A model generated the notes under the pieces. That model made no database searches. It saw only the letters and a list, made by a program, of their open reading frames with translations, and was not told where the DNA came from. Below, piece by piece: positions 17,601 through 57,700 of a DNA stretch of 64,000 nucleotides; the stretch's first letter is position 1; every line of letters starts with the position of its first letter. The stretch covers positions 10,153,837-10,217,836 of the forward strand of contig NC_087080.1 of assembly GCF_026151205.1 (NCBI RefSeq). Direction: 5' to 3'. The translations under genes were made by a program, and so were the position numbers. Source of the stretch: Bolinopsis microptera. Its lineage: Eukaryota > Ctenophora > Tentaculata > Lobata > Bolinopsidae.

Positions 17601-18401
17601 TTTGTCAATGGGTTGGTCTACGATCCAGATATAAAGCTGTTTATTGAACCCATAGGGAAAGACACGCACTTTGACTTAATTGCAGGATACTTTGGAAGAG
17701 CAAAAAGACAGGACATAAAGTGGTCACTGATAGTCAGTCTTGTGAGGAAAATGTTTTCCAGTGACTATGGAAACTTAGACGGCAAAGTGCATCAGGTTGA
17801 TTTCTATGGAAATGACGGAGTCTGTCTGTTCAAATATTTTGTAAACAAACATGATCCTCAGAGAGTTTATAGCCTGTCTGTCCAGGTTATCAACATTATA
17901 TGTTTCGTTATAGTGGCTGTCTCTTACATCATCATTAATACAACAACCATCAATACATCAAACCTGCTGACAAAGACTAATAACCCCACTGCTAAGTTGA
18001 TTAGAAAAAGAAATAAAAAACTGCAAAGAAAAATTGCAGCAATTATCGCAACGGATTTTGTTTGTTGGATCCCTTTTGTTGTTATTAGCGGTTTGCACTT
18101 CCTCGAGGTTACAGATGCTTCTAAACTTTATGGAATCTTCTCTATTGTAATACTCCCTATTAACTCGGTTATCAACCCGTTCTTGTACAGTAAATATATA
18201 AGTTTATATGCTGTTAAACTCAACCCTACAAGTTATCTTGTGTCCAGATACTCTAAATTCAGAAAAAGAAGACAGTTAAGATGTCGAAAAGAGGGAAGAA
18301 GTGGTGAAATTCAGATGCAAGACATGATTGGAAGCAGCGATAATAAAGTGAAAACTACGGGTAGGGTGGCTGGGCCGGGTCTCCAGGTCACGCCATTATG
18401 A
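14632..18401 (+). CDS. LDLa-repeat rhodopsin-like GPCR, three exons
   Basis: Exons 14632-14731, 14943-15127 and 15342-18401 join in frame (phases 1 and 0) and encode about 1114 residues. The first exon gives a signal peptide (hydrophobic around residues 15-28). The large ectodomain is Cys-rich and contains several LDL-receptor class A modules with the acidic calcium-binding SDE box, clearest near residues 351-372, 615-642 and 642-672, and a degenerate one near 162-183. A seven-helix domain runs from about residue 680 to 1050, with CWIPF in helix 6 and NPFLY at the end of helix 7. The end of helix 3 reads LSRV instead of the usual DRY, and extracellular loop 2 is about 100 residues long. LDLa plus 7TM is the layout of relaxin-receptor-like and mollusc GRL101-like receptors; no leucine-rich repeats are evident. 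The ligand is unknown. The open frame extends upstream of 15342 into intron 2, but that part is non-coding. Confidence 0.88.
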
Positions 18402-28959: not shown

Positions 28960-31130
28960 GTCGTGTAATTTGCCATCTATGAATGACTGACTAATTGGTT
29001 ACGGATGAGAAATTCAGTAAAAACTGTAAAACTTTTCGTTTTCTTAAGATTTCTGCTGTGAGCTTCCTCCGACCCGAATCAAACTTCCAGCACCTCAATC
29101 GTGTCATTTGGCATCTATAGTTGACTGAATAATTGGTTGCGGGTCAGAAATTCGGCCAAAACTGTAAAATTTCGGCCCTGGAAGTTTCAGCTTCAAAAAC
29201 TGAAAATGGGACAGAGTATGGGACAGTATGATTTTCCAATTTTTTCGAGATTTTGACTTCCAGTACCCTAATTTGGTTTCATACCATCATCAATTAACTG
29301 ACTAATTGGTTTGTGGGCAAAAACTTCATCCAATCTGTCAAATGTGTGTTCAGAAATTTTCATATCTGAAAATGGGACAGAGTTTTGAAAATACAACTTT
29401 TCGTTTTCTTAAGATTTCTGCTGTGAGCTTCCTCCGACACGAATCAAACTTCCAGCACCTCAATCGTGTCATTTGGCATCTATAGTTGACTGACTAATTG
29501 GTTGCAGGTCAGAAATTCGGCCAAAACTGTAAAATTTCGGCCCTGGAAGTTTCAGCTTCAAAAACTGAAAATGGGACAGAGTATGGGACAGTATGATTTT
29601 CCAATGTTTTCGAGATTTTGACTTCCAGTACCCCAATTTGGTTTCATACCATCATCAATTAACTGACTAATTGGTTTGTGGGCAAAAATTTCATCCAATC
29701 TGTCAAATGTGTGTTCAGAAATTTTCATATCTGAAAATGGGACAGAGTTTTGAAAATACAACTTTTCGTTTTCTTAAGATTTCTGCTGTGAGATTCCTCC
29801 GACCTGAATCAAACTGACAGCACCTCAATCGTGTCATTTGGCATCTATAATTGATTGACTAATTGGTTGCGGGTCAGAAATTCGGCCAAAACTGTAAAAT
29901 TTCGGCCCTGGAAGTTTCAGCTTCAAAAACTGAAAATGGGACAGAGTATGGGACAGTATGATTTTCCAATTTTTTCGAGATTTTGACTTCCAGTACCCCA
30001 ATTTGGTTTCATACCATCATCAATTAACTGACTAATTGGTTTGTGGGCAAAAATTTCATCCAATCTGTCAAATGTGTGTTCAGAAATTTTCATATCTGAA
30101 AATGGGACAGAGTTTTGAAAATACAACTTTTCGTTTTCTTAAGATTTCTGCTGTGAGCTTCCTCCGACCCGAATCAAACTTCCAGCACCTCAATCGTGTC
30201 ATTTGGCATCTATAGTTGACTGACTAATTGGTTGCAGGTCAGAAATTCGGCCAAAACTGTAAAATTTCGGCCCTGGAAGTTTCAGCTTCAAAAACTGAAA
30301 ATGGGACAGAGTATGGGACAGTATGATTTTCCAATGTTTTCGAGATTTTGACTTCCAGTACCCCAATTTGGTTTCATACCATCATCAATTAACTGACTAA
30401 TTGGTTTGTGGGCAAAAATTTCATCCAATCTGTCAAATGTGTGTTCAGAAATTTTCATATCTGAAAATGGGACAGAGTTTTGAAAATACAACTTTTCGTT
30501 TTCTTAAGATTTCTGCTGTGAGCTTCCTCCGACCCGAATCAAACTGACAGCACCTCAATCGTGTCATTTGGCATCTATAATTGACTGACTAATTGGTTGC
30601 GGGTCAGAAATTCGGCCAAAACTGTAAAATTTCGGCCCTGGAAGTTTCAGCTTCAAAAACTGAAAATGGGACAGAGTATGGGACAGTATGATTTTCCAAT
30701 TTTTTCGAGATTTTGACTTCCAGTACCCCAATTTGGTTTCATACCATCATCAATTAACTGACTAATTGGTTTGTGGGAAAAAATTTCATCCAATCTGTCA
30801 AATGTGTGTTCAGAAATTTTCATATCTGAAAATGGGACAGAGTTTTGAAAATACAACTTTTCGTTTTCTTAAGATTTCTGCTGTGAGCTTCCTCCGACCC
30901 GAATCAAACTGACAGCACCTCAATCGTGTCATTTGGCATCTATAATTGACTGACTAATTGGTTGCGGGTCAGAAATTCGGCCAAAACTGTAAAATTTCGG
31001 CCAATGAAGTTTCAGCTTCAAAACTGAAAATGGGACAGAGTATGGGACAGTATGATTTTCCAATTTTTTTGAGAATTTGACTTCCAGTACCCCAATTTGG
31101 TTTCATTACATCATCAATTAACTGACTAAT
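28960..31130. repeat. 365-bp tandem satellite, well-resolved part
   Basis: A unit of exactly 365 bp repeats about six times with 97-99% visible identity; landmarks such as TCGTGTCATTTGGCATCTAT recur at about 29098, 29463, 29828, 30193, 30558 and 30923. The leftmost unit is short and has an internal deletion. Units alternate between two subtypes (for example TTCCAGCACC versus GACAGCACC). The recurring 67-residue minus-strand ORF is a property of the unit and shows no sign of coding constraint. Confidence 0.95.
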
Positions 31131-34100
31131 TTGGGTTTTTTTGGGGGAAAAAAAAATCCAACTTCAAAAGGGTGAAACAATTGAAAGGGGGATTTTAAAA
31201 TACACTTTTCCTTTTTTTGATTTTCCGGAGCTTCCTCCCACCCCAATAAACTTCCAGCACCCAATCGTTCATTTCCCCCTTTTTAGGATTTTTATTGGTT
31301 GGGCGAAATTTTTTTCCAAAATTTTTTGGTAATTCCTTAAATAAATGTATGGGACGTTTTTTAAATTTTTTAGGAAGTACCCCAAGGTTTTAAAAATACA
31401 AAATGCTAATTGGTTTTGGGCAAAAATTTATCCAACTCTCAAAAGGTTAAAATTTTTTTTGAAAAATGGGGAAAGTTTTTAAAATAAAATTTTGTTTTTT
31501 AGATTTTTCACTTTTCCCCAACGAAAAATTTCCCCATATTGTTAAAAGGATCTTAGTTACCGACAATTTTTTAAAATTTGGAAAAAACTTAAATTTGGGC
31601 CCTTTAAGTTTACTTAAAAGAAAATAAAATTGGCAGAGACCTTTTTTGTATTTGATTAGTACCCCTTTGGGTTTTTACCATCTTAAAAACTAATTTTTGT
31701 AAAAATTTATTAAATTTAAAATGTTTTGAAATTTTTAAATCAATGGGACTTTTTTTCCAACCTTTTTTAAATTTTGGTCTTCCCCCAAAAATTAATCAAT
31801 GTTCAGGGTTTTTTAAAGGACTGAAAGGTTTTCGGGGGGTTGGCAAAAAAGAAAAAACGGTGAAATTTGTTCAAAAAACGGGAAAAAGGGCAAGTTTGGG
31901 CTTAAATTTTCCAATTTTTCGGGGGATTGACCCCCAAGTTTTTAAAAATTAACTGTTTTTTTTGTGGGAAAAATTTTACCCAACCCAAAAAAGGTTTTCA
32001 GAAAATTTTCTATCTGAAATGGGGAAAATTTTTAAAAACAAATTTTTTTTCGAGGGACCCCCCGACCGAACAAATTCCAACTTTATTGGCCTTTTTAAAG
32101 TTTAATGCAAAGGGGGGAAAACGAAAAAAATGTAAAAATTGGGAAGTTTTCTCCGGAAAATCAGAGATGGGACCATAGATTTTTAAATTTTTTGAGATTT
32201 TGCCCATACCCAAATTTGGTTTCATAATTCTCAAAAATGATAATGGTTTGTGGGGCAAAACACCTTGCTTTTTAAAAATTTCTTTTGAAAATGGGACCGG
32301 TTTAAAACAAATTTTTTTTCTTTAAGAGCTGTCTTCCTCGACCCATAAAAGAATAAGATAGGATTATGGAGACTAAGGTTTCGGGGCAAGGAAAAATTAA
32401 AATTTTGGCCTGGAGTTTTTTTGCCAAAAAATGAAAATGGGGGTTGGGGGTTTGAAATTTTTTAATTTTCTTTAAAGGTTTCAAAATATCTTAAATGACT
32501 AATTTTTTCAAAAAACCCTCGTTGGTTTGGGAAATTTTTATAGAAAAATAAGGTTTTTAAAAAAAAATTTTTGTTTTCTTTAAATTTCTCTTGAGTTTCC
32601 CCCGACCCCAAACAAACCCAGACCCCAAAGGGGTATTTGCATTTATTGAAATGCTTTTGGGGGTTTCGGGTTTGAAATTGGCCAAAATTTAAAAATTGTT
32701 GGGGAAATTTGCTTCAAAAAAAAAAAATGGGAAAATTGGGGGAGTTTATTTTTAATTTTTTGAGGGGTTTTTACCCCGTACCCCTTTTTTGGTTTTAATT
32801 CCATTTAAATTCGCTAAAATTTGGTTTTTGGGAAAAAAATTTTATCCCTTTTGTCAAATGTGTGTTCAGAAATTTTATTCTGAAAATGGGACAGAGTTTT
32901 GAAAAATACAATTTTGTTTTCTTAAGATTTCTGTGGGCTTCCTCCGCCCGAATCAAACTTCCCGCACCTCAATGTTCATTTGGATCTTTTGTGTGATAAT
33001 TTGGGTTGGGGGTCAAAATTGGCCCAAAATGTAAAATTTCGGCCCTGGAAGTTTCAGCTTAAAAATGAAAAAAGGGACAGAGTTGGGGCGTTGATTTTTC
33101 CAATTTTTTGAGATTTTTATTCCGTACCCCAATTTGGGTTTTAACCCCTCATCAAATTAAAATGCTAATTTGGGTTTTTGGGAAAAAAATTTCTCAACTG
33201 TCAAAAGTGTGTTCAGAAATTTTCTATCTGAAAAAGGGGAGAGTTTTGAAAATAAACTTTTCGTTTTTCTTAAAATTTTTTGCTGTGGCTTCCCCCACCC
33301 GAAACAAAAATTTCCCGCACTTTAAAAGTGTCATTTGGCATTATAGTTGATGACTAATTGGTTGCGGTCAGAAATTCGGCAAAAATGTTTTAAAATTTCG
33401 GCCCCGGGAAATTTCGCTTCAAAAATGAAATGGGACGAGTATGGGACAGTATGATTTTCCCTTTTTTCGAGATTTTGCTTCCGTACCCAAATTTTGGTTT
33501 TATACCCTTCATCAATTAACTGACTAATTGGTTTGGGGCAAAAATTTTATCCAAACGTCAAATGTGTGTTCAGAAATTTTCATATCTGAAAATGGGACGG
33601 TTTTTTAAAATTTCAACTTTTGTTTTCTTAAGATTTTGCTGTGAGTTCCTCGACCCGAATCAAATTCCGCCCCAATGTTTTTTGCATCAAGGATGTTGGG
33701 CGGGCAGAATTGGCCAAAACTGTAAAAATTTTGGCCCTGGGAGTTTTAGCTTTAAAAACTGAAAAAAGGGACGAGTTGGGAATAGATTTTCCAATTTTTT
33801 CGGATTTTGATTCAGTACCCCAAATTTGGGTTTTCCCCTCTCAAATTAAAGATAAAAGGTTTGTCAAAATTTTACCAATCTGTCAAATGTTTTCAGAAAA
33901 TTTTCATTTTGAAATTGGGAAGATTTTGAAAATAACTTTTCGTTTTTAAGTTTTCTTTTGTGTGAGTTTTGCCCAATCAAACTTCCCAGCCCTCAATCGT
34001 TCATTTGCATCTAAGTGAAGACTATTTGGTTTGGGGGAAACCCCCAAAAAAAAAATTCCCCTTTAAATTTTGCTTCAAAAAATGAAATGGGCAGAGTATG

Positions 34101-35775
34101 GGACAGTTTTGAAAATTTTCCCAATTTTTTTTGAGGATTTTGCTTTCCAGACCCCAAGGTTTCATAAATCATAAAATTTAACTGACTTTTAAGGGTGGGC
34201 AAAAATTCATCCAACTTTCATTTTGTGTTCAGGGAAATTTTCTTCTGAAAATAAAATTTTTTGAAAAATAAACCTTTTCGTTTTCTTTAAATTTCGGCTG
34301 TGAGTTTCCTCCCGAGAATCAAACCCAGACCAAGTTTTTTCATCTAAAGTTGATGTAATTTTTGGGTTGTTTTTCCCCCAAAAGGGAAAATTTCGGCCCT
34401 GGGAAGCAGCTTAAAAAAAATGGGAAGATTTGGGCATTGATTTTCCAAGTTTTGGATTTTACCAGTTTTCCCCAATTTGTTCATCCACACAAAACTGATT
34501 TTTTGTGGGAAAAATAAATTCAAATGTGGGTTTCAAATTTTCATTTAAAAACCGGGACGGTTTTAAAAACAATTTTCGTTTTCTTAAAATTTTTGCTGTG
34601 AGGCCCCTCCGACCAATCAAAACCCGACCTAAATTTTCAGCATTCTATAGTTACTGGGCTAAATTTTGGTTTTCGGGGAAATTGGCAAAACTGTAAAATT
34701 TGGTGGAAATTTGTTCAAAAATGAAAATGGGGGGATGGGGAGATAATTTTCAATTTTTTGGAGGGACCCGTACCCAAAAATTTTGGTTTTTTTTCCAACA
34801 ATAATGTTTGGTTTGTGGGAAAAATTTAACATTTGGTCAAAAAAATGTTTCAGGAAATTTTCTATCTGAAAACAGGTTTTAAAAACCCTTTTCGTTTTTT
34901 TAAATTTTCTTGGCCTCGCCCCCGAAAAACTTTCAGGCACCCTCGCATTTTGGATCTTTTTGACTCCTATTGGTTTGGGGTAGAAATTCGGCAAAAATTA
35001 AAATTTCCCCCTGGAAGTTTTGTTCAAAAACTGGGGAAAATGGGAAAGTTGGGGTTGGGTTTTCCAATTTTTTCGAGAGACCCCGTACCCAATTTTGGTT
35101 ACATAAAAACAAATTAATGAATTGGTTTTTTGGGGCAAAAAATTTTCCAATCTGTCCCCAAAAAGTTGTTCGAAAAATTTTTTTTTTTATTGAAATTGGG
35201 GGGAGATTTTGAAAATAAATTTTGTTTTTTTTTTAATTTTTGTACCCCCTCCCCCCAATCAAACTTCCAGACCTCAATTGTCAGGGCACATAGTTGACGG
35301 GAAAAAGGGTTCCCGGTAGAAAAAGGCCAAAACTTAAAAATTTTGGCCCGGAAGTTTCAGGCTTTAAAAAAAGAAAAAGGGCAGAGTATGGGACGTATAT
35401 TTTCCATTTTTTTCAATTTTATTTGAAATTTGGTTTATACCTCATCAAAAAAATTAATGATTTTTTGGTTTTGGGAAAAAATTTTCATCCCACTTAAATG
35501 TGTGTTAAAATTTTTTAAAATGAAAATGGGACAGAGTTTTGAAAACAAATTTTGTTTTCTTAAATTTCTGCGGAGTTCTCGACCCGAAAAATTTTGCACT
35601 TTTCTTCCCATTTGATTAAGATGCGATAAAAGGGTTGCCCCGGAAATTTTTGGGCCCCCAAAATTAAAATTTGGGCCCGAAGTTTCGCCCTTAAAAATGA
35701 AAGGGGCAAGGGGGGCAGATGTTTTTCAATTTTTTCAAGACTTCCCAGACCCAAATGTTTAACCACACTCTCTTT
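31131..35775. repeat. Same satellite in apparently corrupted consensus
   Basis: Words of the 365-bp unit (TTCGTTTTCTTAAGATTTCTG, GTGTGTTCAGAAATTTT, AAATGGGACAGAG) continue to recur at roughly 310-360 bp spacing as far as about 35600. Between them the text is full of inflated A, T, G and C runs and dropped single bases. That pattern is typical of unpolished long-read consensus. No ORF in this block should be annotated. Confidence 0.85.
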
Positions 35776-39700: not shown

Positions 39701-42700
39701 GTGTGATTAAGCACTGGTATGGCATTAATTAATTAGGATGACTTAATAGGTATATCGCTAGCCACTAATTAACTAATTTATGAAGTTGAAGATATAATTT
39801 AGTGGAGGTCGGCGGATATGTAAATTATTTTCACTGTATCTCGAGTTATGTTTTCTTGGGTAAATTTCTATTGATTCCGTTTGATGCGACAAGGAAAAGG
39901 CTCTTATCAGGAAAGGAATTATTCAACATTTCAATGTATGTGACAACATAAATTCAAGCATGATAGGTGCTCTCCGAGCGATTCTCATGCCAGCTAGCTG
40001 TTCTTTCGGAATTGCACGAAGGGTTTCCATATGTTCAAAGATATTACCATTATGACTGGGTATTTCTTTCAGTAATGGTTTGAGGATGGTTGTCACCAGC
40101 CAGCTTAATCTCTCTGTAGGTGAGTCAACACAGCTAATAATGGGTCATACTTTCACCCGTTCTAGAGGAATGGTGTTTGCATAGTATAGTTTGCATAGTA
40201 TAGGTTGCATGGAAATATACGGTATTTTCAAAATCAATATTTGAAAAATCGTGATTTTTGCGGCCGCGGCACGGTTGAACCGTACAGAATTCATTTTGGT
40301 TCATTTTGGTTTTTGCATTTTGTAGGGAAACAGTTTCCCGATCAGATCATTTTAAATGCATCCTAAACCGAAATACTCAATTTTGAACCTAATATAGTAT
40401 GGTGGCGCACTGTGATATGTTTTCATCACAGATATTATTGAATTATTATCATATTATATGAATGTGCTAATCTAGCTAGGCACATTTGGGGCACACTTGG
40501 GGCACACCTGGGGCACACCTGGGGCACAAAATGAAAAAAAAGAGGCTCAGTTCTTTATTCCTCATAGTTTACAAGTAACAGCCCGTCTCTAGTTTATCAT
40601 TTTTATTAATATTCCCTCTTTATAGTCTTATACAAAGCCTAGATGATGACTTTTATTTGTTGTTCAAAGTTCCTCCTGCCTCCTCATTTCAGACGAACAG
40701 ATGTGCTTTATGTTTTTTGGACCAACAATTTGGAATGAACTATCCTACTCAGTGAGATCATTATCATCTGTAGAATATCAAATAACGGAGTAGTTCGCTG
40801 TTTATTAGTCTCATGATTGATTTATACTACTGAATCAGTGCATTGATGATCTATATTATAAGATCGATTCTTCATTTTAATGTAATACTAGAAAACCCGT
40901 GGTCACAGGGAGGAAGCTAATAATATTTTTTGTTAGTAAGTTTAAATCGCGTCAAAAAATATCCTACACATGAACCGAAGATACAGCCAATTAAAATGTT
41001 GCTCGCACTAAACACAACGTAATATCAACAAAACTGATCAAAATGACGTTAAAACAATCATTGCACGTGCACGTGCGTGTAATAATCCTCGTTAACATGG
41101 TTACTACGCAAGTTCATATTTTTCGTTTGATTTGCACGTGGGCGGTCGTACAGACAGACAACAAAAACAATTCTCTGAATTATAGTAGAGATATAATACC
41201 ATTTGATGTAACATGTATTCAGTTTGTGTCATTTTAATTTAGCATTTTTACTAACTTATAGAACCATTTATAACTGTATACTAACATTTGTACCAATTTT
41301 AGCCTGAAGATGGCGTTGACGCCGAAAATGTGCCTACATTCTTAACTTCCTGTTTCATTTGTCCTTGTCTCTTCCAACCGGATATTATCCAACTATCAGC
41401 ATCTGTAGAATGTATTTAAAATGCCCTAAGGACGTTTTATTTCCACCTAGCTTGTGATAATATTCCTAATATTTGTCCATAATGTCTGAGCTGATGTCTG
41501 AGCTTGATAATATAAAAGTGTATAACCTTGGTAATTTCATACTTTTTTATTAAATACTTTTCAAATTTTACAGAGTACAGCAATAGATGAATATAAAATA
41601 GAATCGTTCAAAATATCGCCCCCATCTGTAAAATATGATGGGCACCCAAACACGGTAAACACATAGTGAACTATGTCCGCAGTAACTTGGACCCATTACA
41701 TCGAATTAATCTAAATCCAAAAATTTATGAAAAACTATTTAATAACAAACAAATCCATGGTGAATAACTGTGGATATATAGTCAAAATTGGTATTTCAAT
41801 ACGTCAAATTCCAGATACATTAGATACAGGTCTGATATGGTCATTAATGTGTGAGGTGTGCGGGTGAAGTGTGATATGATGTTGAAAGTATAGGAAGGTA
41901 GATAAAAAATTAATAAAACAAAAATAATAATAATATGGGGAGCAAAGAGACTAGGCTAGGCTGTTGTTTCACTATCCAATAAACATTTCCATAGATGCTT
42001 AGTGACCTCAGCTTTGAAAACACTTGTAGACACAATCTGTCTTACCTGTAAAGGGAGTCCATTCCACAGTATATGAGTTCTGTAGAAAAATGATTTTGCC
42101 AGTGGGCTATTTGAGGTACATAAGGTGTGTGAATTCTGACTTAACTTAGGTAAAATTGATGACACAATAGACAGACTGTCGAGGTGGCAACGTCTTAGTC
42201 GAGAAGTGCCCTGATATAAAGTGAGATAGTGAGGCAGCCATACAGGAATTAAATTGTTCAGAACTTTGTGGAAAAAAATAAGATCATTCAAGTCAAACTT
42301 TTGAGACAAAGGGAGAATGTCGACAAGCTTGCACTTTTTGACATATTGCTCAGGTGGATAACTGCGGCCCTCTTCAGACAGAATCCATTTAATAGCTCTC
42401 TTTTGGAGACTTTCTAATTTATCACTAAGTGATTTATTACAAGGGCGCCAGATTATGGAACAATTTTCGAATTGGCTACGAACCAGGGAGAGGTAAAGCG
42501 CCCGGCGACGTTTCTGATCAATGACAATATGGCCATCTCTTCTGACCATACCAAGTTGTTGGCAGGCCTTAGTATAAATTCTGTCGCACTGACTATTCCA
42601 ACTGAGCTTAGGAGTAACATCGACTCCAAGATCTTTTTCTAACTCTACATACACAAGAGGAGAGCCATCAAGATTATATGCGAATGGAGGAGATAAAGAT

Positions 42701-45700
42701 GGTTTTCCTGAAACAATAAGCACTTTACATTTTGCTGGATGGAATCGCATTTTGTTTCTAAGTGCCCAGTCAGAGAGATAGTCTATATCCATTTGTAAAT
42801 TGGTATTATCAGAAGATGAATGTATTTTACGCCAGATTTTTGTATCATCGGCATACAAAACAATATCAGTATTATCCGAAAGGCCAAGAGGAATATCATT
42901 GATAAACAATACAAAAAGTAAGGGACCAAGGATAGAGCCCTGGGGGACACCAGAATTAACTGAGAGGGTAGATGACATCTCATTACCAATAACCACTCTT
43001 TGGTAACGGCCTTGAAGGTAATTGGTAAGAAATTTGAGAAGTGTACCATCAATGTTATATAAGGTCTTTAGCTTATGAAGAAGGATATCATGATTTACAG
43101 AATCAAATGCCTTAGCAAAATCAAAATACACAACATGATTGATAATGTTTTCGTTAAGAGACAATGCCAGGCTATCACAAAAATCAACCATATTGGTTGT
43201 GCATGACTTGTGCTCTAGAAAACCATGCTGCCTGGGATCAAGAAGGGTACTTGTCAAAGAAAGCAGTTTACGTTTAACAATGCGCTCAAAAACTTTCATG
43301 ACTAAACAAGTAAGGGATATTGGTCTATAGTTTTCAACCTCACTTTTCTTACCTTTCTTAAATATTGGGACAACATTTGCAAGTTTCCATTCTTGTGGAA
43401 TGTAGCCGCTGTTGTAGGATCCACGAAAAATGCATGTTAGAGGGTAAGCTAAACCTACGGAACAATTTTTTAGAATTTTACCGTGTATGCCATCTGGTCC
43501 CTGGGCTTTATTTGAATTAATATTTGAAAGAAGCTTACGAACATCCCGATGATCGAAGTCAATATCAAAATCAACATCATTGACATAGGAGATGTCAGTG
43601 TCATAAAGTGAAGGATCCGAAAACTGGTTATAAAAGAAAGAATTGAAAAGTTCAGCTTGATCTTTGGGATTGAACCGAAGCTGTCCAGAATAACTAACAC
43701 AATTAGGAATACGGCAGGAGTTAGATTTATACTTAACATGTGACCAAAACTTCTTAGTTATAAGCGCTGGATCATCACTATTAAAAAGATTATCTCTTAT
43801 TTTGGCTGATGAGAGCCTCTTAAAATCTTTACGGCTAGTAACAAACTTTAACTCATCAGAAATAGAACCAGAAATTTTAAATTTAGCTCTGAGTCTATCT
43901 TTTTTACGGCATGAAGAAAAAAGTTCACTATCGAACCACGGGGGTTGGAACTCTGATTTAATAATTACTTTAGGAATATGTATATCAACTAAATTCATAA
44001 TGCAGTCTTTAACTAACTTCCAAGACGAATCAGGATCTAGGCATTCTAGGACTTGCCAATTAATCGAGCATAATTCACGATTAATCATGTCCCAGTTTGC
44101 TTTCTTAAAATTATAGATTTTACGTTTAGGAGTTTTCTTACGGGAAAAGGAGCTTTTAATTGAAAAAGTGACAGGAAAATGATCAGATTTGCACACGGAA
44201 TGAGGATCACAGACATTCAAGTTATCGATTGTGTTATCATAATTACTGAGAAGAATGTCTAATGTATTACCACTTTTATGGGTGGGTGATGTGATCAACT
44301 GGGAGAGAGAAAGATCACTGAAAGAATCTATGAAGGATTGCTCAATAGGTACGGTACTGGATGAAGATAGCCAGTCTGTATGGGGGAGATTAAAATCACC
44401 AATAACATAGATTTTAGGGGGATTCTTTTTGGAAACTAGCTTGCGAATATAACTAACTATGACATCATGATTAGGTAACCCAAGAGTTCCTACTCTATAA
44501 CAAGTACAGATTACAATACTCTCTTTGTTAGGAAAAGAAATTTTAACGGCAAGCATTTCTGCACCTAGGCTAACTGGTAGTCGGGTTGTAGTGGCGTCGA
44601 GATCAGACCGAACAGCCAAAAGAACACCACCTCCATTTTCCCTAAACTTTTTAGGGTTATTAGGATCTTGAGGATGAGTCTTTCTCGTGCGGTCATTGCG
44701 GAAGATTTCATATTGAGAAGAAGGAAAGATTTCGTTGCTAGAAATAGATTTTTTGAGCCAAGTCTCATTTAGGGCAATTATGTCAGGCTGCTCTATGTTA
44801 GCAAAGGATTGAAGTTCGGAAATCTTATTACCATCAAGAAGGGGATGGGAGGAGCTTAGGTTACTGAAAGGAATGAGACCTTGGACATTTTGGTAGAGTA
44901 CAGATAGGGAGTTGGGACCTGGATTAAGCATAGAAGGATTAACAAGAGTTATCAAAAGAAAGTTAAGAGAGAAAACCCAAAGAATGAATAAAGAGACTAG
45001 ACGCCTGAGGCGGCTGGAATACTTGACTCTATTCATCTTACCAGGGAGAAGAACATTTCTTATAAACCATGAGGAGATAATTACAAAGAAAAGTTTGATG
45101 TGGGAGCAAGCAAGAAATGGTATAAGATAACGTGGGCTGTCAAGGAGTAGAGAGGAATGAATATTAGAATCTAGGGGGAATACGGTGTTCATGGACCTAA
45201 CCGTGGAGAGAAGAATTGGGAGAAAGTAAGTCATGATGAGAGAATAGAAGAGAAACATATGATTATGATAATTGTAGTTGATGTGTGGGGTGTATGGAGA
45301 CTTAAATGTGTAAATTTTGTTAGGTATAAACGTGTTGATATGTATAAGTGCATTTCTTGACTGTGTACGAGGCCTTTTGCATGCAAAAAGACCTATTCTA
45401 AGTCTAAACGATTCATTGTCTAACATATTGGAAAATGGACAGTGACCGAATGTACCTGAAATGGGAGGCATAAAATTGAGAAAAAGATTAAATCAGAGAT
45501 TTGTTTGAGTTTTAATTTTAGGCGCAACGTCTTAATCAAAATATTAAATGGAAGAAAAGATCAAAGATTTAAATTCCCAGAAGATTATTTACAACCCTGT
45601 CAAAACTGTGTTCGTTTACAACAAACTTAAGCCAAGTGGACAGTAAACCTACTCCTCTCATGTTGAGATGAAGCCAATCATGGTATAGAAGTTCATTACA

Positions 45701-48700
45701 TGATCTAAAGTCTCGAGTTAAAAAGACTGAGAAACAGTCTAAGAACACGCAATTATTATTTAGGCATAAGTCTTTAAGTAGATTATTAAAATCTAGAACA
45801 TTCTTTGCTATGTAGGAATATAAACATTTAATAGGAAGACAACATTGGATAATTATAATTGCAGCGGGAAATAACTGCTTAGTGGTGTCAATTAATTCAG
45901 TAAGATACTTCCTAAGGAACTGAACCCCATACTTAGAATGTTTAATGTCATTTGTACCAACACTCAATATAATTTTTTCAATATCGTCAGCTTCTGCAGC
46001 TGCATGAGTTTTATGAAAATTATGAATGTTTTCAGTGATGTCTCTAATTTTTGCACCACTTTGAGACACATTGATTACTTTCCTTCCCCGGAATCCCAAC
46101 TTATTTGTCCGTACGAATTTTGTCATTGACGTACCAAACAGGACAGTGGTTTTCCTGCTCTTCGGTTTTCTTGGAGTATTTCGGTAGTAAAGGGTTGGTG
46201 TTGAGGTGGTGGTGGGCGGCATAGGAATTGTAGTGCGGGCAATCTGCTCCTTGACTACATTTGTATCTGTCTTCGGTATCTGGCAGCGAAAAGATAAGCT
46301 ATACCGAGTCCCCTTAACTGAGCTCTCTGCACGAACCTTGTGAAGACAATATTCCTGACACCCCGGTTTCATAATATACAAACTACAGTCCTTTGGGGTG
46401 ATATAGCATTTACTGTTACATCGCTTATCCCCATTTTCTGGAATTATGTCGATGGTCCTCTCAGCTCCAAATGAAACTACATAAATACCTTGCGACTGGT
46501 CAAGAGACACCTCGTCGTCGTTGTGGTACCTAGTTGCACAAGAACCAGACTTGTACATGCTTGCTAGGCATGAGTTTAGCTTGCAGCCAAACTTGGAGTT
46601 GATATCATGCATAAGCTCTGATATCCCAGGATAATTTAAAATATCGATTGGCTCCTTAGTCGTGGTGTGTCCATTTGAGGAAGACCATACATATTCTTCT
46701 CCAGTCGAAGTGAGCCACTTTGTGGCAGTTTTCACAGCAGTTTGCTTGGCCATAAGTGTTTCAAGTTCAGACATCAACGTGCCATGTTGAACACTCTTGT
46801 TCTGAACAAAATCTGAATGCAACTCCAAGAAGTCCTCGCATTTAACAGAATTTCTCTTAAGTTTCATGACATTCTCAACACTGGCCTTGAGAGCTTTCAG
46901 CTCATTTAATGAAAACGAGTTTAAAACATTGGTAACAGAATTCAGATCCATAGTGATGTGAGGAAGAGGGAGGAGAAAATGGCGGTGAGGGAGGAGAAAA
47001 TGGCGAAGTCAATACTGTAGCCCAGGAAGTAGATGCGTTGCTTAGGATACAAACGGTCACGTCATAGTCTCTTCTATCGCTTTGACATTGGGACCTAAAA
47101 TTATTTGTTATATAGTAGTGTTGAAAGTATTAAAACTGATAAAGTATTAAAACTAATATTTGTCCATAAAATTTGAACTGATAAAGAAGTCCATAATCTT
47201 GATATTTCAACACTAAGTCTCGCTTGAATTTCTCAAATGTACATTTTTGTTGGTATATTTTAATGTCGAAGCCTCGAAGGGGATGATATTTGTTTAGACC
47301 TTTCTCTAATCGAACGTCACAATACCACCACTATGCAGTTATATGTGAATTTTCTTTTGATTTAAATTTTTTTTCCCATTTAGCCCGTACCCATTTTGGC
47401 CCGTTAGATTATTAAGAAATTGTACTAATAAATATCTCAGAATGAGTCTGTGTGACGAGGAATACACCGTAGATCAACTCTACGATATTTCACTCCATCC
47501 CGACAAACTGAAGTCCTATCCTGGTTTCCAAAACTTGCACAAATTGACGTCTGGTACTATTACTTTTCACTACGATCTACCATACGATGATATAAAGGAA
47601 TTTGTAGAGGAGGAGAAGAAAACTATTTTAAGTAAAGTCCCGGAGGATGTGATAAAAAGCAATGGAGTAAAGTGGGAGCATGTCGGATCTACTTCCATTA
47701 AAGGTGATCAACTTAGGAACGGGGTTGAAGGCTAATAAGATCTCAAATCAATTTGTTGATCTACTCTGTTACAGTTCAGTTTGCTAATTTTAAAGACTGA
47801 TAACTGAATAGGCGCCTGCATTTTAAGATTAACACTTTATGCATTAGGAATTCGCAGCACTGAAGACAACATGCAAATAGCGTGAATTACTATTAGTGGT
47901 ATTAGTCAAACGAGGAAATAAGTTAGATATACCGGCAGCCAGGGTTTGTTAAGCCAAATATCTCAGGTATGCCAGGCACAATATTTCCAGATTCCTTAAT
48001 CCTTTTTGACTGCCTGCCGATTCCAAAACCTATTTTCACTGCCCTGATGGATTCAGGATTCTCGTTCGTCGGCTCCAGTTTTCATCACCAAGATGATATT
48101 TGGTTCATAAAGCAGGTTTAAACAGCTTCTTCGGTAAAACTAAATATAATTATCAAATAAATTAATTTATAACCATATTCATAAGTAGTTGCAAATGTTG
48201 CCATAACTAATAAACCACTAATAATAGGTCACATTACATTTCAGATAACTAGAGATGGATCTAGACTGGACAAACAATTCTTCATAATACACGTTACCCC
48301 AGCAACCTTAGGGCTATCAAGAGTTTTGGTTGAAACCAGAGACAGATGCAATGAAAATCAAACAGATTTTGAGACCTATAAGGTATTTTTGAAAATATCG
48401 GCTGGTTGTATCAAATTGTCACATGACTTTATATTCGGGTTGACATGATCATCAGTTATCGATATGGACGCTGACATTCATTTGACAAAAACAGTCTTGA
48501 AACCGCAAATTTTAATCCCCAGGAGGCAAAAGTGAAAGCAGCAAAACTCTTGATGGAAGAAAACGTTATCGGTTACAAGATTGAAAAAGGATCAAACAAG
48601 CTTTTTGCAGAGCTTAATGAAAATAATCCAAACTATTCTGTGCAGGGAAAGTAAACCTCAGAGCAGTATGACAAATCACCCGCGACAGGATGAAGGATAA

Positions 48701-51700
48701 TTAATTTCAAACTAACATGTTTTAAAATTTTATATAAAGTTGATTAATGTGTCGTGTAGGATATATTTATGAGTCAATACTTCACATTGGAAGTTTCATC
48801 TTAGACTGATTTGGATTTCTATTTTCGCCACTGCGAAAATCCAAATTTTGATTTACTTTGGTTTGAAAAGTTGCTAATATATCAAAGTTATTTTTAATAT
48901 GTATTTTAACATGTAATAATTTATCTACAAATTATAACAAAAATCGAACTGTTTGTCTTATTTATTAGCTTTTGAGATCCATTAAAAATGTGGAAAAGAG
49001 TCCTGAAACACCCTGTATAAACAGGAATGAGGGAAGCCCAGAAGTAACTGCCCAGTGGCCACACAGCAGATAGGAGTCGGCTATTTTGGCTGTATTTTAA
49101 CCTAAACTTGTTGGCCCTTTTTGTGGAGTTGTTGTGTCTTGAAGATGTTTGTGTGTCGGAAGTTGCTGATTGGTTGAATCTTCAAAGGTAGGTTTATTAG
49201 TTGAGGATTATTTGTTTATTAGTTGAGGATTATTTGTTTACACAATGCTGCACAGTATTTGGTAATAGAATGTGTAATTAATATTACAGATAATCAAAAC
49301 AATAATAACATCCCACACAATTAAACAAGAGTTTGTGAGTTCACATGATCAGGAGAAGATCAGTAATTTCCTAGCTCAAACATAAACCTAATTAAATCAT
49401 TGTGTGTAAAGAATTTGGGGTAAAGATGACGTTAATTAAGTGTATGGGGTCACGCAGGCGTCGTGAATCAGGTGTGTCATGTTTACAAGCAATGCAAACA
49501 TCGTAAACAGATGTATGACTTCTTCAGTTAACGTTAATCAGGTGTCGTTAATTAGGTTCATGACCTCCTACAGTAGGCGCTAATTAGGAGTTGCATGCTG
49601 ACAACGAAATTTCACTGCTTAAACTACAGTATAAAAACCTTCCACCAGATTTACCGATATCCCGTTTATCCTCTGTTTGAAATTAAGTTGTTAAAATTTT
49701 GACTTCAAGCCGCATATCACAAATATGTACAGCATGATTCACGTGCATGAATTGACTTATTTGCTGTTTAATGAGGTCTTGTAGTTTAGATTATCTTGCC
49801 GTGCATGCAGTGAGAAAGTTATTGACTTGTTTTTTAAATTTATCCTTTAATTAGTTTCTCACGGGTCATAGTTTTTCGGTCAACTGCTATCTCGAAAGCC
49901 AGTTTCACAAAACCCCCAGATATACTGAGATTGGGTGTATCAAGCCGTATCTGACATGAAAATAAAATCAGCAGGAAATAAGCTTATTTCTGATACGGCA
50001 CCAGTTTGTCGGGCACGTGGAGTGACTCAGTCACGAGTTGCCGTCACTTGATAGATAACGTGACCTATATGATCTTTAAAATACAGTACTCAATAAATAT
50101 CAATAACCAAATTGTCACGTGACCAAAGTGCGCTGTCCAATAGCAGTTAGGTAAGCTGTCATGTGGCAACCACGAGAGTAACACGATGGTAGCAGCATGG
50201 CAGGATGCTCATTGGACAATGAACACTTTGTGTCGGAAGTAGATACAGTTTTTTGCCTATTTGATACCAGGTCAGGAGTTCTATAACTTACCATAGTACA
50301 TATGTGTGTCGCGTATGTGAGCACAAAACTGTGCTCTTTGGTTCACCTTGCTTACTTTTCACTTCCCTTTATGTTTTGGATATGTATTCAACACAGATAT
50401 TATTGAATTATTATCATATTATTATTATATACTGAGGCTCTGTTCTTTATTTCTTATAGTTTGCAGTCATAGTCTGTCTTCGTTTTAATTTTCTTTCTGT
50501 TGTAGTTGCATAAATGTATTTCAAGATCTTCTAAATTGATGCATTTTACATCTTGAGTCCCCGAGCATAGCTAAACTATTTTTCTGTTGTAAATGTACAC
50601 GTTCTAAAAACCTAGAAACACACTAACAGCAAACCATTCTTAAATGGTAGATATTAGCTGTATGTGGGCAAAGTTGTTTTAAAATGCTTCTCCTACATAG
50701 CCGTAGCCAATAGCCATGTCATGTTGATCCTTAGATTAGTAAGAAATTGTACTAATAAATATATCAGAATGAGTCTGTGTGACGAGGAATACACCGTAGA
50801 TCAACTCTACGATATTTCACTGCATCCCGACAAACTGAAGTCCTATCCTGGCTTCCAAAACTTGCACAAATTGACGTCTGGTACTATGAATTTTCACTAC
50901 GATCTACCATACGACGATATAAAGGAATTTGTAGAGGAGGAGAGGAAAACTGTTTTAAGTAAAGTCCCGGAAGATGTGATAAAAAGCAATGGAGTAAAGT
51001 GGGAGCATGTTGGATCTACTTCCATTAAAGGTGATCAACTTAGGAACGGGGTTGAAGGCTAATAAGACCTCAAATCAATTGTTGATTTCAAAGACCCATA
51101 ACTGAGTGAAGCCTGCAGTACTCTACTCATATAGAGTACATATATCAGTAGGCGCCTGCATTTTAAGATTAATACTTGATGCTTTCGCATGAATTGCTAC
51201 AGTGATATTAGTGGAACTAAAAAAGAAGTTAGATAGTTTTAAACTAATTACAACACTACAAATCTATTACATTTATTGAGGGAGTTATAGAAGGAACATA
51301 TTTAATGTAGTTTGAGGAGTCCTCACTTTTCTCACGTCCGACAATGGAGAGGCTAATATGCCTGCAGCCAGGGCGTTGTTTGTTAAGCCAAATATTTCAG
51401 GCATGCCAGGGACGATATTTCCAGATTCCTTAATCCTTTTTGACTGCCTACCGATTCCAAAACCTATTTTCACTGCCCTTATAGATTCAGGATTCTTGTT
51501 CGTCGGCTCCAGTCCTCATCACCAAGATGATATTTGGTTCATAAAGCAGGTTTAAACCGCTTCTTCGGTGCAACTAAATATAATTTATCAAATAAATTAA
51601 TTTATAACTATCTAACATAAGTAGCTGCAAAGTGCAAATGTTGCTATTACAAGAGTATTATACCCAACATTGACCGGCGAACTGATAGCTACTTCAGAAG

Positions 51701-54700
51701 CAATGAAACTACAATCTTCTAGATAAAATGAGTCATAGTACTTTCAGCCGGAGCCATCATAAGTGACATAAATCTAAAAGATAGTATGGTTAGTTTCTAA
51801 ATATAATAAACTCAAACTCTGAAAAGGAAACTGCCGTGAAATATGAAACATCAATAAAAGGACCTATTATTTAAAAAAAATAATTTATGGAAAGCCCCTC
51901 AGACAAAATAAAAATCAATTATGCAATAAAGGAATCTTAAAAGGGTTTGTACTATTCATTCCTGAGGGGCGGAGGGAATTTAAGGCATGTATATATCGGT
52001 GCTCCTTAACATCTAAACTACTAGGACTTGAATTTTCTAGGATACACACTGAAACACTATTGTTAAAATTTTCCTTCTGAGTCAGTCCATGCTCTATATG
52101 GAGGTGGAGTCCTACGCAGTTTGAGTCATCATCCGTGTCAACCTTTTGCCCACTGATGATCTTGTAGAATGCTCTTCTGTGTTCGCCAAACCTTACCCGT
52201 AGCATTCTGGTGGATTTGCCTACGTATGGTTTCTCACACAGTTTACATCTGATCAAATATATGATGTTGTAAGTGATGCATGTACCTGGTGCTGGTTTTA
52301 CCCGTTTCCCATTGATGCTGATTTGTGTAGCACTATCAATAGACTCACACGTTGCACAGTTCTTCTTTCTACACGGCCTTGTTTGACCATGCTTATTCCC
52401 CAGAGCTATTTCTTTCACCTTAACCAACCGGCTTTTGAGGTTGCTTCCTGTTTTCTTGACAAATTGGAAGAACTTTTTGCCATTCTTCTTTTCTTCAAGG
52501 GTGTTACTCTGTTGTTTTGAGTCACTCAGGTTACAAAAACTTCTGGTCTTCTTTAAGTTCTCCTCATACTTTTTCACTGTGGTGACAATGTCAGAGTCAC
52601 TTCCGCAGGTTGAGACAACCCTTATTGGTAGGATCTCTGGCTTCAGTGTGTTGTCCTTGGGAGGTCTTCGTTCAAGGTTTCTTTCGGAGTTGAGAACTTT
52701 TTTGCTAATGTTGTTCACCATTTTTGAGGGATAAGCAGCTGCCTTGAATGCTTGGCTTAATTCACTCAATCTGGTTTCCAGTCGTTCTTGTGAGTTGATT
52801 ATTCTCCTGAGTCTGATACACTGGCTGTAAACTATTCCACTATAAATGTGGTTTGGATGTGCACTGCTAAAATGTAGATAGCTCCTTGAATCTGTTTCCT
52901 TGATATGGAGGTCAGTTTGTAAGTTTCCCTCAGGGTCGAAACAAAACTCGATATCTAGAAAAGCCACAGGCGTGCCAACTTCCTTCCATTGGGATTCGTC
53001 AATGAGTAGCCCATATTCTTTCAAGGATTTGTTTACATCGGAAATCCACTGGTCAAATTTCCTTTCAGTGCTGTAGAAGAAACCTGCACCATCGTCAATG
53101 TACCGTCTTACAGTCCTGACTCTCTTCATCATGTCAGTGTTACTGTAAACGCATTTGTTCATTACATAAAATACAGTTATGTTGGCCAACTGCACACACA
53201 GACTTCCACCTGTAGGCACTCCGTTCTTTTGGACGTACCACTTGTCTTCGAAGCATCCAATAGAGGATCTTAGACTGATATCAACGAGGTCGACCAGCCA
53301 ATCACAGAGTGCTGGTGTCCAGTCTGGTCTGGTGGTATTCATTGCATGATGAACGGCTTCCTTGACAAGTTCAGGGTTTAATGAGTCGTAGAGAGCTTTG
53401 AAGTCGAAAGTGAAAGCTCGGAGGGCTCGTTTGTCTGTTTCAACTTCATTGCATACTTCAAGCCATCTCAGTGCGTCCGTTGAGTCAGTCAGTAAGTCTT
53501 CGCAATAGTCCTTTTCAAGATTTTTGAAGTACTCACTGGCCAAGAAGACATCACTCCTTTTTGCTATTCCTTCCTGTAGTGCAGTGACTAGTCTCACAGG
53601 GGGCTCTATGCCTGGCACAAGGTCTTTTCTCTTCAATTTGTGGATCTTCAAACTCGGGTAAAAGTAGGCTTTTCCTGGCTTGAAATGTGAAGAAGTGCTC
53701 TTTGCATTGGTCTTATCTTTCCCCTCTTTTGTGCTATCATTATCAGAAACACCCATGACACTTTTTGCAGTCATCGGATGGATAAAACCTTTCTCTTTAC
53801 CTTCAACCCATTTGAGGAATAACTCATGGTGTAATGTTTGGGTGAGATCTTCCTTCAGTTCAGTATAGATATTCGGGTTTTGGAGCTTCTCAAGTGTCTT
53901 CTTCCTTAGTGTCTCTGGGTTGATAATGATCACTGCACCTCCTTTATCAGCTTGAACAACGGATAGTTTTCCCTCATTGTTCATGCACTCAAGCCATTTT
54001 AGGCCCTCAGTCTCTTCCTTTGACAAGTTCTTCTTTGTGTCGCCTCTTGTAGTTTTCTGAATGGTCAATCTCTGGTCAAGGTCCGCCTCCATACTCTTCA
54101 CAATATCATTAACACTACTGTCATCTGATGACTGTGATGAATAGTATGATTTTTGGTAGAGTTTTGGTGGTATTTGGGGCAGATTCGGGGTTTCAAGGTG
54201 TAGGTACAAAGCCCAACCCTTTTCCAAGTACACACACAGCCCCGGGTGGGACAGGTTCATTCACAAGGATGACAACACTTCCGTCCTTTATGAGTCTTTT
54301 GGCTTCTTTCTCAGTTCGTCTTCTGTTTATCTGCCGTCGGTTCTTAAAATTCACACGCTTCTTATTTCCCTCAATGAGTTGAAGAGTTTTTAATGTTTTT
54401 CTTGGCCACCTCTTCCACTCAGTTTCCTCTTGTTGTTTGTAGAAATCAAGTTTGTTTTGGTGTTTCTCCTTGGTTCTCTTAACCTCAGAGGGGACTAACG
54501 GGATTTTTTCGTGTGCACCAGCCTTAAAAACAGAGGCCATGTGTTTGATTTCATTCAGTTTGTTTTTGATGGCCTCTCCTAACATCAGTGTCTCTAGTAC
54601 AGAAAAATGTTTAAGTTTAGATGCATCAGGGATAGTAGGGGCTCCTTTAACCCGAAGGGATGGTGGTGGGTGTTTCAATTTCACGCAGTTTCTCAAGAAT

Positions 54701-57700
54701 TTCAGTTTCATTTTCAGCAACTGAAGTTTCTGGAAGACTGTTTTTTCTCCTGTTTGAGAGTTCTCTAAGAGGTGGCTTTCATCATTTTGATTCACAATGG
54801 GTTGGGTCTTCCCATTGTCTAGAGAAAAATCGGGCTCCAGAACCATAAGCGCCAGGTTGTCCAAAACGGTTAAATCACAAGAGTATTATACCCAACATTG
54901 ACCGGCGAACTGATAGCTACTTCAGAAGCAATGAAACTACAATCTTCTAGATAAAATGAGTCATAGTACTTTCAGCCGGAGCCATCATAAGTGACATAAA
55001 TCTAAAAGATAGTATGGTTAGTTTCTAAATATAAACTCAAACTCTGAAAAGGAAACTGCCGTGAAATATGAAACATCAATAAAAGGACCAATTATTTTTA
55101 AAAAAATCATAATTTATGGAAAGCCCCTCAGACAAAATAAAAATCAATTATGCAATAAAGGAATCTTAAAAGGGTTTGCTATTACTAATAACCCACTAAT
55201 AATAGGTCACATTATATTTCAGATAACTAGAGATGGGTCAAGACTGGACAAACAATTCTTTAAAATACACGTTACTCCAGCAACCTTAGGGCTATCAAGA
55301 GTTTTGGTTGAAACCAGAGACAGATGCAATGAAAATCAAACAGATTTTGAGACCTATAAGGTATTTTTGAAAATATCGGCAGGTTGCATCAAATTGTCCC
55401 ATGACTTTATATGGGTTGACATGATCATCGCTTATCGATATGGACGCTGACATTCATTTGACAAAAACAGTCTTGAAACCGCAAATTTTAATCCCCAGGA
55501 GGCAAAAGTGAAAGCAGCAAAACACTTGAAGGAAGGAAACTCATTGGGTTACAAGAAGGTAAAAGGATCAAACAAGCTTTTTGCAGAGCTTAATGAAAAT
55601 AATCCCAACTATTCCGTACAGGGAAAGTAAACCTCAGAGCAGTTTGACAAATCACCCGCGACAGGATGAAGGATAATTAATTTTAAGCTATCATGTTTTA
55701 AAATTTTATATAAAGTTGATTAATGTGTCGTGTAGGATATATTTATGAGTCAATACTTTACATTGGAAGTTTCATCTTAGATTGATTTGGATTTCTATTT
55801 TCGCCACTGCGAAAATCCAAATTTTGATTTACTTTGGTTTGAAAAGTTGCTAATATATCAAAGTTATTTTTAATATGTATTTTAACATGTAATAATTTAT
55901 CTACAAATTATAACAAAAATCGAACTGTTTGTCTTATTTATTAGCTTTTGAGATCCATTAAAAATGTGGAAAAGAGTCCTGAAACACCCTGTATAAACAG
56001 GAATGAGGGAAGCCCAGAAGTAACTGCCCAGTGGCCACACAGCAGATAGGAGTCGGCTATTTTGACTGTATTTTAACCTAAACTTGTTGGCCTTTTTTTG
56101 AGGAGTTTATCCGAGTGAGCATTTAACCACAAACGTACAATTGGTATTTCATTTTGGGTTCTAGCCGATGTCAAGATGTAAAATTGTTCGGCACTATGTG
56201 AGTTTTATAGAGTAGCACAGAACTAAGCAAAGTAATTGGGAGACTTATTTTGGGAATTCCATAGAATAATTTCGGACAGCAGACTGTGCACTGCAGGGAT
56301 CGAATCAAATTATATCAATTATAATGACGTAAATATCATTACGAGAAATCAAGAGTTCAAAAATTGCCCGCTCCTTCCGGCTTTATGCTTATGTAAACGG
56401 TCGCACTATAATCTAATATGCTGAACTGATTGTTGGGTTGTAATCGACTTTGAGCGGTAATCGACTTTGTCTGTGTTTACAGATGCAAGCTATATTTAAA
56501 GCCGCCATTTTAGTCATATAAATAACTAGCTTAATTCAGAGCATCACAATGCAACGTGCGCGAATATCTGATAATGCGTACGCGCCAAAATAGGGGTCCT
56601 TTTTACATTGAAATGTCTTTCTGTAATGGCGCGCAGAAGATGAAAGGCGCGCTGGAGGTTGAACACAGAATTCCACGTAATATGGCTGTAGAACTTCTTG
56701 TTCCAAGGCCTAACATTCTACTAGAAAACTCGATATTAACCTGGCACTTTCGGGAAGGAGAATATGAATATAAAATCACAAAATATGGCATTTTATAGAT
56801 GTGGATACTGGTGGGGAGGTGAAGCATATTTGTTTTGACACGTGACAGCAATTCAGGGTTTTGATAGGTAAATTCTGGAAACTGGTTAACCACTGGCAGT
56901 CTGGCACGTTTCAGAAGAAATATGTTTCACTTCCTCACTAGTATCTATTAAGTAAGCCAACATTACCTGAACAGCAAGATATCCAACCACAGCAGTAGCA
57001 GCAGCGTACTTGCTCACTTTCTTGAACAAATAACCAGAGCAACTGAGGAAATTAACATGAATTAGCAATCTAGGTAAACTATAGGTAAAAATATAATATT
57101 AATCATAAGCTAAAATGTACTAATCTTTGTATTCTAAATGGGGAAAAGAAGAAACATTGTCAGTCAGTCGAAAAAAATTGTCAGTCAGGCTATATGGCAG
57201 CTTTGTAGATGTTGTGACAATGCTAGTGGTGGTCCCAGGCTTGCGACTGGAATTGAAAATGTGACGTTGTGACGCTGTTGTTGTTGATTTTCCACAAAAA
57301 CCAGTACACAGTGAGACAGATTCAAACCTTATATTGTGACTGTTATCACGGTTTATATTAGTGCTGATTAATTAATTAATTGAAAGGCCCTTTAAAGGTC
57401 TGATCGGTGTATGGCTAGTCTTCACGAGTAGACGCGAATTGGATATTACTGATGAGCTTCACGCCAGTTTATTATTAACTTGTAATTAATTTAATGGGTA
57501 ATTAAATCTCGTGAATAACAAAAATTATATACAATTTAAAAGCTATGTACCTCCGTCAGATTCTTTGCTAGCAGTTACAAAGTTGATAAGGATTATACAT
57601 GTTTTTTAACTTACTATACAAATAATCGATTTGAGTAGTGATACTGAAATCGGACGATAAGGTTTGGATAAGGTTTGGACATTAGTAATTTTCCATTAGC

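Follow-up and report, generated by a model that had tools for sequence, protein, structure and literature searches.

Does the first open reading frame (ORF1) of a long interspersed nuclear element (LINE) in Bolinopsis microptera fuse an AlkB-like dioxygenase to an SGNH esterase, and what would such a protein do for the element? The question arose from an earlier note on a stretch of 64,000 nt (GCF_026151205.1, NC_087080.1 10,153,837-10,217,836), which was analyzed whole and is called the window here. We confirmed that an AlkB-type domain is joined to an SGNH esterase in ORF1 of this LINE. As to function, we give an even chance to the reading that the ORF1 protein (ORF1p) is a working Fe(II)/2-oxoglutarate (2OG) dealkylase of the ALKBH2/3 type, flexibly tethered to a LINE-type SGNH esterase and acting on the RNA of its own element.

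Two enzyme domains in ORF1

The features of ORF1 are listed below. Counts out of 81 refer to an 81-row alignment of ORF1 homologues, and counts out of 95 to all matched homologues.

45569..46951, minus strand: ORF1, 460 amino acids, AlkB-like dioxygenase and SGNH esterase
46274..46846, minus strand: AlkB-like domain, residues 36-226
46517..46525, minus strand: H143-x-D145, iron ligands by homology (H and D in 81/81 rows)
46511..46513, minus strand: E147, acid of HxDxE, common to ALKBH2 and ALKBH3 (81/81 rows)
46340..46342, minus strand: H204, third iron ligand by homology (81/81 rows)
46286..46306, minus strand: R216-YSLSF-R222, 2OG-binding arginines by homology (R216 80/81, R222 81/81)
46154..46273, minus strand: variable linker, residues 227-266, disordered at 238-257 (predicted local distance difference test, pLDDT, < 50)
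45614..46153, minus strand: SGNH hydrolase domain, residues 267-446
46127..46129, minus strand: S275, catalytic serine (GTS), in 80/81 rows, A in one
45947..45958, minus strand: GTND 332-335, block III, with N334 in 81/81 rows
45668..45679, minus strand: D425-W-L-H428, catalytic Asp and His (H428 in 77/77 rows with a residue, D425 in 64/77)

The ORF1 sequence alone matched ALKBH3 in the PDB at 7e-8, and a profile search matched ALKBH3 at 3e-18 and ALKBH2 at 1e-15. With a profile of the AlkB domain, PDB sequences ranked in the order ALKBH3, ALKBH2, then AlkB, then ALKBH1 weakly, and neither ALKBH5 nor FTO was found among the 31 PDB sequences matched at E<=10. The predicted fold (pLDDT 91.7) compared best with ALKBH2 (Z 23.1), followed by ALKBH3 (21.9), ALKBH6 (19.1), AlkB (18.8) and ALKBH5 (18.3). 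The HxD...H facial triad, RxxxxxR and, in the predicted model, an AlkB-type fold were all present, placing the domain in the AlkB superfamily. The complete ligand set claimed by the earlier note (H143, D145, H204, R216, R222) is thus borne out by profile match, fold and near-invariant residues; the note had named the lack of any 2OG-Fe(II) oxygenase match as grounds for dropping the idea, and both kinds of search placed ALKBH3 and ALKBH2 on top.

H143 and D145 were kept in 89/89 homologues having residues there (6/95 were gaps), and E147 in 88/89. The alignments of ALKBH2 and ALKBH3 both show the acid of HxDxE that matches E147; in these enzymes it reads the damaged base. Other positions kept in the domain were W79 (77/81), Y87 (79/81) and an aromatic residue at 89 (79/81). 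A chance motif was rejected by the profile matches, the fold and the conservation, and a degenerate enzyme was rejected on conservation, activity itself being a prediction. Among the best 120 of 124 standalone AlkB relatives, named bacterial proteins appeared from 3e-15; these relatives are compatible with either an animal or a bacterial origin of the domain.

In the second half of ORF1, SGNH blocks I, II, III and V were all represented (S275, G299, N334, D425 and H428). Pfam PF13472 matched at 3e-12, above its cut-off, and the structure of the zebrafish ZfL2-1 protein (4c1b) matched at 2.8e-5 by ORF1 sequence alone and at 7e-13 by profile. These matches and the conserved residues uphold the triad framework described earlier (S275, GTND, D425/H428). 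With an SGNH domain upstream of an endonuclease/reverse transcriptase ORF2 and sequence kinship with 4c1b, the protein belongs to the esterase type (type IV) of LINE ORF1. The linker carries a basic stretch, PRKPKSRK, directly ahead of the esterase. In the predicted model the AlkB domain is preceded by helices at residues 3-11 and 15-34, which are at most candidates for the coiled coil of this ORF1 type.

Conservation of the fusion

The 95 protein homologues of ORF1 ranged from 96% down to 26% identity. The AlkB set was complete in 88 of them, the S/G/N/H set of the esterase in 86, and both in 79, so the fusion and its HxD...H...R residues are kept in relatives, as the earlier note had asked. 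Six of the seven AlkB misses were gaps in proteins of 261-320 amino acids and one was a Leu at 216; seven of the nine SGNH misses were gaps, and in the other two the Ser was replaced (P0048, P0082). Sixteen columns of the 81-row alignment were invariant, ten of which lie in the AlkB domain (H143, D145, E147, G162, R165, M194, Q199, H204, S220 and R222). Mean column conservation was 0.56 for AlkB, 0.57 for SGNH and 0.20 for the linker, the last figure being pulled down by mostly-gap columns, which were scored 0. Pairwise AlkB and SGNH distances correlated with r 0.86 (80/81 rows); 0/2000 permutations reached this value, and none exceeded 0.31. Because the distances correlate and conservation is high in both domains, these alignments indicate that the two are inherited together and are both under constraint. 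This protein-level evidence points to purifying selection on both. From their similarity and length, the database relatives are probably LINE ORF1s as well.

Pairing of ORF1 and ORF2 homologues on the same contig, judged by equal length of the longest contig, was rejected as evidence, with 2 lengths in common against a mean of 1.2 in a control with shifted lengths, no better than chance. Scans of prokaryotic genome contigs through one or two short peptide patterns each gave no fusion relative confirmed by ORF1 or ORF2 alignment. Viral contigs likewise gave no confirmed fusion relative. In the sole locus, L001 of an IMG/VR contig, the AlkB-like ORF (9830-10585) matches ORF1 residues 39-229 at 22% identity and, with 251 amino acids, has no room for the esterase.

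Several homologues showed other arrangements. By eye, the 706-amino-acid P0078 has an apparent second AlkB-like stretch ahead of its AlkB-SGNH unit, and a Cys at the E147 position. The model of the Oskar OSK domain matched 7/81 alignment members (best 7e-5), and P0241 is annotated with AlkB, OSK and GDSL. The OSK matches bear on how Oskar's OSK domain is related to the SGNH domains of retroelements.

An intact element

The element that carries ORF1 is laid out as follows.

41483..47152, minus strand: whole LINE insertion, 5,670 bases, bounded by both copies of the target-site duplication
47153..47169: target-site duplication, copy at the element's 5' end, exact 17-base repeat
41466..41482: target-site duplication, copy at the element's 3' end, exact 17-base repeat
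46952..47152, minus strand: 5' untranslated region (UTR), with two 19-base direct repeats at 46966-46984 and 46987-47005
41956..45471, minus strand: ORF2, 1,171 amino acids, starting 97 bases beyond the end of ORF1
44926..45261, minus strand: three hydrophobic, transmembrane-like segments within ORF2 71-182, by hydropathy threshold only
44914..44925, minus strand: NPGP at ORF2 183-186 (NPSMLNPGP), 2A-like in the last four residues only
44170..44850, minus strand: apurinic/apyrimidinic (AP)-type endonuclease, ORF2 208-434 (PF14529 8.6e-13, PF03372 3.7e-7, above cut-offs)
42718..43350, minus strand: reverse transcriptase (RT), ORF2 708-918 (PF00078 1.2e-28, above cut-off)
41483..41955, minus strand: 3' UTR, terminating in about two copies of AGCTCAGACATC at 41483-41504

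The 17-base duplication gave 2 matches in the window with up to 2 mismatches allowed, against 0.05 expected from shuffles. Because 5,670 bases sit between its exact copies, the insertion is full-length and coding-intact, and it is probably young. The apparently intact LINE of the earlier note, with both ORFs open, is thereby confirmed. Poly(A) was absent at the 3' end of the element, where the short AGCTCAGACATC repeat was found instead. Long terminal repeats (LTRs) were also absent, the longest direct repeat in 41000-48500 being 30 bases among the 20 of 23 repeat families listed. An AP endonuclease and RT in ORF2, a target-site duplication and the absence of LTRs identify an APE-type LINE, present as a single copy by tblastn within the window. 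A frame artefact was rejected as the origin of ORF1, which lies on the minus strand; the plus strand has many stops. Each 19-base repeat of the 5' UTR contains AAAATGGCG on the plus strand, presumably a YY1-like core. The pattern AANATGGCG occurred 6 times in the window, where 1.3 occurrences were expected.

In ORF2, YADD at 873-876 was invariant in 17 aligned rows. The hydropathy threshold that marked the N-terminal segments was also passed by one RT segment (846-865), and the N-terminal segments are candidates only. Homologues of ORF2 were counted among the best 120 of 1,443 matches. By the pattern used, NPGP was present in 104/120; of the 16 misses, 6 begin at or just before NPGP, 8 are other proteins of 876-1,007 amino acids, and 2 are full length (P0125, P0153). 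At least 140 residues precede NPGP in 79/120, with 2-3 hydrophobic segments there in 79/79, and a hydrophobic segment ends at most 12 residues from NPGP in 75/79. A canonical 2A peptide was rejected, as DxE plus one residue before NPGP occurred in 0/104 matches. Ribosome skipping at this site is doubtful because the NPGP stretch lacks DxE. The predicted segments would be consistent with a membrane-anchored ORF2 protein (ORF2p) beside a membrane-binding ORF1p.

Possible function of the fused protein

LINE ORF1 proteins coat the RNA of their element. After translation, the present ORF1p would bind the RNA of its own element, and the AlkB module would oxidatively strip methyl groups on the Watson-Crick face, N1-methyl-A (m1A) and N3-methyl-C (m3C), that would stop the element's RT. 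The cleaned 5.7-kb RNA would then yield more full-length target-primed copies, a benefit probably larger for a long RNA, which has to be copied from end to end, than for a short one. The AlkB module would also provide nucleic-acid contact, for which known esterase-type ORF1 proteins have no folded domain; because those proteins lack a structural RNA-binding domain, AlkB may be the missing RNA-binding unit. The esterase, following a proposal made for ZfL2-1 of zebrafish, may carry the particle of RNA and protein to membranes or have lipids as its substrate. What computation supports is the presence of both domains with their catalytic residues, their joint conservation and the intact LINE context; from these we infer RNA binding, demethylation and a gain in copying, and the substrate, the action in cis and the membrane step are likewise presumed.

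Work on tRNA sequencing is consistent with the copying step. Both m1A and m3C hinder common RTs, and in OTTR, which uses the non-LTR RT of R2, AlkB takes away m1A and m3C, and most 3' tRNA halves are then captured better; the authors concluded that cloning efficiency is affected by m1A (PMC12140624).

Several points weigh against a working dealkylase acting on its own RNA. Pfam at curated thresholds gives no AlkB domain in this ORF1 copy. S131 occupies the position of the Asn in NRY of ALKBH2 and NLY of ALKBH3, and just 3/81 rows have Asn there. This asparagine of NxY contacts 2OG, and with Ser in its place cofactor binding may differ from that of ALKBH2/3; for this reason we call the domain ALKBH2/3-like and not a member of that subfamily. 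Dealkylase activity and expression of ORF1p are predictions from sequence and model. In mRNA, m1A and m3C are rare, which leaves any gain from their removal hypothetical. The gain from AlkB in OTTR was modest for intact tRNAs, and untreated modified tRNAs were still copied by the R2 RT (PMC12140624). In HeLa cells, ZfL2-1 retrotransposition did not require the ORF1 protein (PMC3905857), so the functions of esterase-type ORF1s may matter only in some settings.

Among other explanations, the AlkB module could erase N6-methyl-A (m6A) from element RNA, which would thereby escape m6A readers or granules of the host, a role proposed for the protein of a Ty3/Gypsy element of the orchid Phalaenopsis (PMC9289625). 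We consider this unlikely, given the absence of ALKBH5 and FTO from the matched PDB sequences and the fit of HxDxE to ALKBH2/3. Moreover, human L1 depends on and gains from m6A, and overexpression of ALKBH5 lowers L1 mobility about fourfold (PMC7873242); for plants, an opposite effect of m6A is cited for ONSEN (PMC9289625). We lean toward m1A or m3C, rather than m6A, as the probable substrate.

Repair of alkylated DNA, whether the single-stranded target or new cDNA in target-primed reverse transcription, or host DNA, is quite unlikely. The AlkB domain is located in ORF1p, generally the RNA-binding protein of LINEs, and not in the endonuclease/RT protein, and by sequence ALKBH3 is the closer match. 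That the AlkB fold is a mere nucleic-acid or protein binding module, replacing a missing RRM with its catalysis unused, would suit esterase-type ORF1 proteins of RepBase, which had no structural RNA-binding domain (PMC3905857), and the loss of most NxY asparagines. Binding alone would not demand invariant iron ligands and nearly invariant 2OG arginines over 26-96% identity, and this explanation seems very unlikely. Finally, the module could modify host RNA or a host protein to disarm a defence, instead of treating the element's own RNA. Such an action was raised for plant viruses with AlkB and for the orchid element (PMC9289625), and a membrane-associated esterase partner would permit it at sites apart from the RNA particle; we hold it to be highly improbable here, LINE ORF1 proteins being generally regarded as cis-acting.

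Returning to the cis-acting dealkylase, a wider picture can be drawn tentatively, and we regard it as possible though on the doubtful side: a LINE lineage with its own template cleaner, in which ORF1p would strip RT-blocking lesions in cis, the esterase would deliver the RNA to membranes, and a membrane-anchored ORF2p would wait there. Such an element would be a natural counterpart of the reaction of AlkB with a non-LTR RT used in tRNA sequencing.

Other features of the window

15195-18401, plus strand: 1,068-amino-acid ORF with low-density lipoprotein (LDL)-receptor class A repeats and a rhodopsin-type seven-transmembrane domain, as fits an animal host
29030-31131: 365-base tandem satellite, 5.8 copies, 97% matches, with a diverged array of the same family at 32553-35588
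47440-47740 and 50770-51062: a short coding stretch (MSLCDEEYTVDQ...VGSTSIKGD) in two similar copies some 3.3 kb from each other, by eye, with further similar sequence downstream and a 132-amino-acid ORF without a Pfam match at 0.01
51915-54260, minus strand: open 781-amino-acid ORF with RT and GIY-YIG similarity, both below the Pfam cut-off
54193-54864, minus strand: ORF upstream of the 781-amino-acid ORF
57868-59820: 23-base tandem array, about 85 copies, 97% matches

We take the ORFs at 51915-54864 to belong to a Penelope-like element.

Relation to known systems

Human ALKBH3 and ALKBH2, the nearest proteins by sequence and structure, share HxDxE...H...RxxxxxR and the fold predicted here; unlike ORF1p, they are host repair enzymes without an esterase, and have Asn in NxY where ORF1p has Ser. 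ORF1s of CR1, L2 and RTEX, such as that of ZfL2-1 (PDB 4c1b), also place SGNH upstream of the endonuclease/RT ORF2, but consist of a coiled coil and esterase with no structural RNA-binding domain (PMC3905857), whereas here AlkB precedes the esterase. The GDSL-esterase ORFs of bdelloid LTR and Athena (Penelope-like) elements are also retroelement-borne SGNH enzymes; their captures were independent according to that paper, in the available text of which the word "oxygenase" does not occur (PMC5408684). In the survey of 448 elements of the Jockey superfamily by Metcalfe and Casane, Table 1 lists PHD, RRM, CCHC, Tnp22, coiled coil, leucine zipper, zinc finger and esterase, AlkB not being among them (PMC4120745). 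Esterase-type ORF1s were found in only two vertebrate groups there, whereas PMC3905857 adds cnidarians and sponges.

Other parasites have acquired AlkB. The Phalaenopsis element likewise captured an AlkB-family dioxygenase with its cofactor residues kept, but it is of the LTR type, with the enzyme in a separate extra ORF, kin to the ALKBH5-like RNA demethylases and reported from one Phalaenopsis element family (PMC9289625). The present element is a LINE in which ORF1 itself carries an ALKBH2/3-like domain fused to an esterase, with relatives down to 26% identity. The AlkB of Alpha- and Betaflexiviridae and Closteroviridae also belongs to a genetic parasite, with repair of the RNA genome proposed as its role (PMC9289625); unlike the LINE, these plant RNA viruses have no DNA stage, and in the BFVD matches their AlkB lies within long polyproteins or replicases. 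Titles and the starts of abstracts in the open-licence literature gave no report of AlkB in a LINE, and an earlier description in Repbase or subscription journals is possible. Of the new retrotransposon strategy proposed in the earlier note, the AlkB-SGNH fusion in a LINE ORF1 stands, and its novelty has to be drawn more narrowly, an ALKBH5-like demethylase having been described in the orchid Ty3/Gypsy element.

If the proposed function is true, the core RNA-binding protein of a LINE would contain an RNA-dealkylating enzyme, and one could test whether retrotransposition in nature is held back by alkylation or methylation of the template RNA. The enzyme may also prove useful in practice where modified RNA has to be read through. 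With the orchid Gypsy element and the plant RNA viruses as the other cases, AlkB would have been captured repeatedly by parasites that are copied from RNA, in this instance apparently for a different class of substrate.

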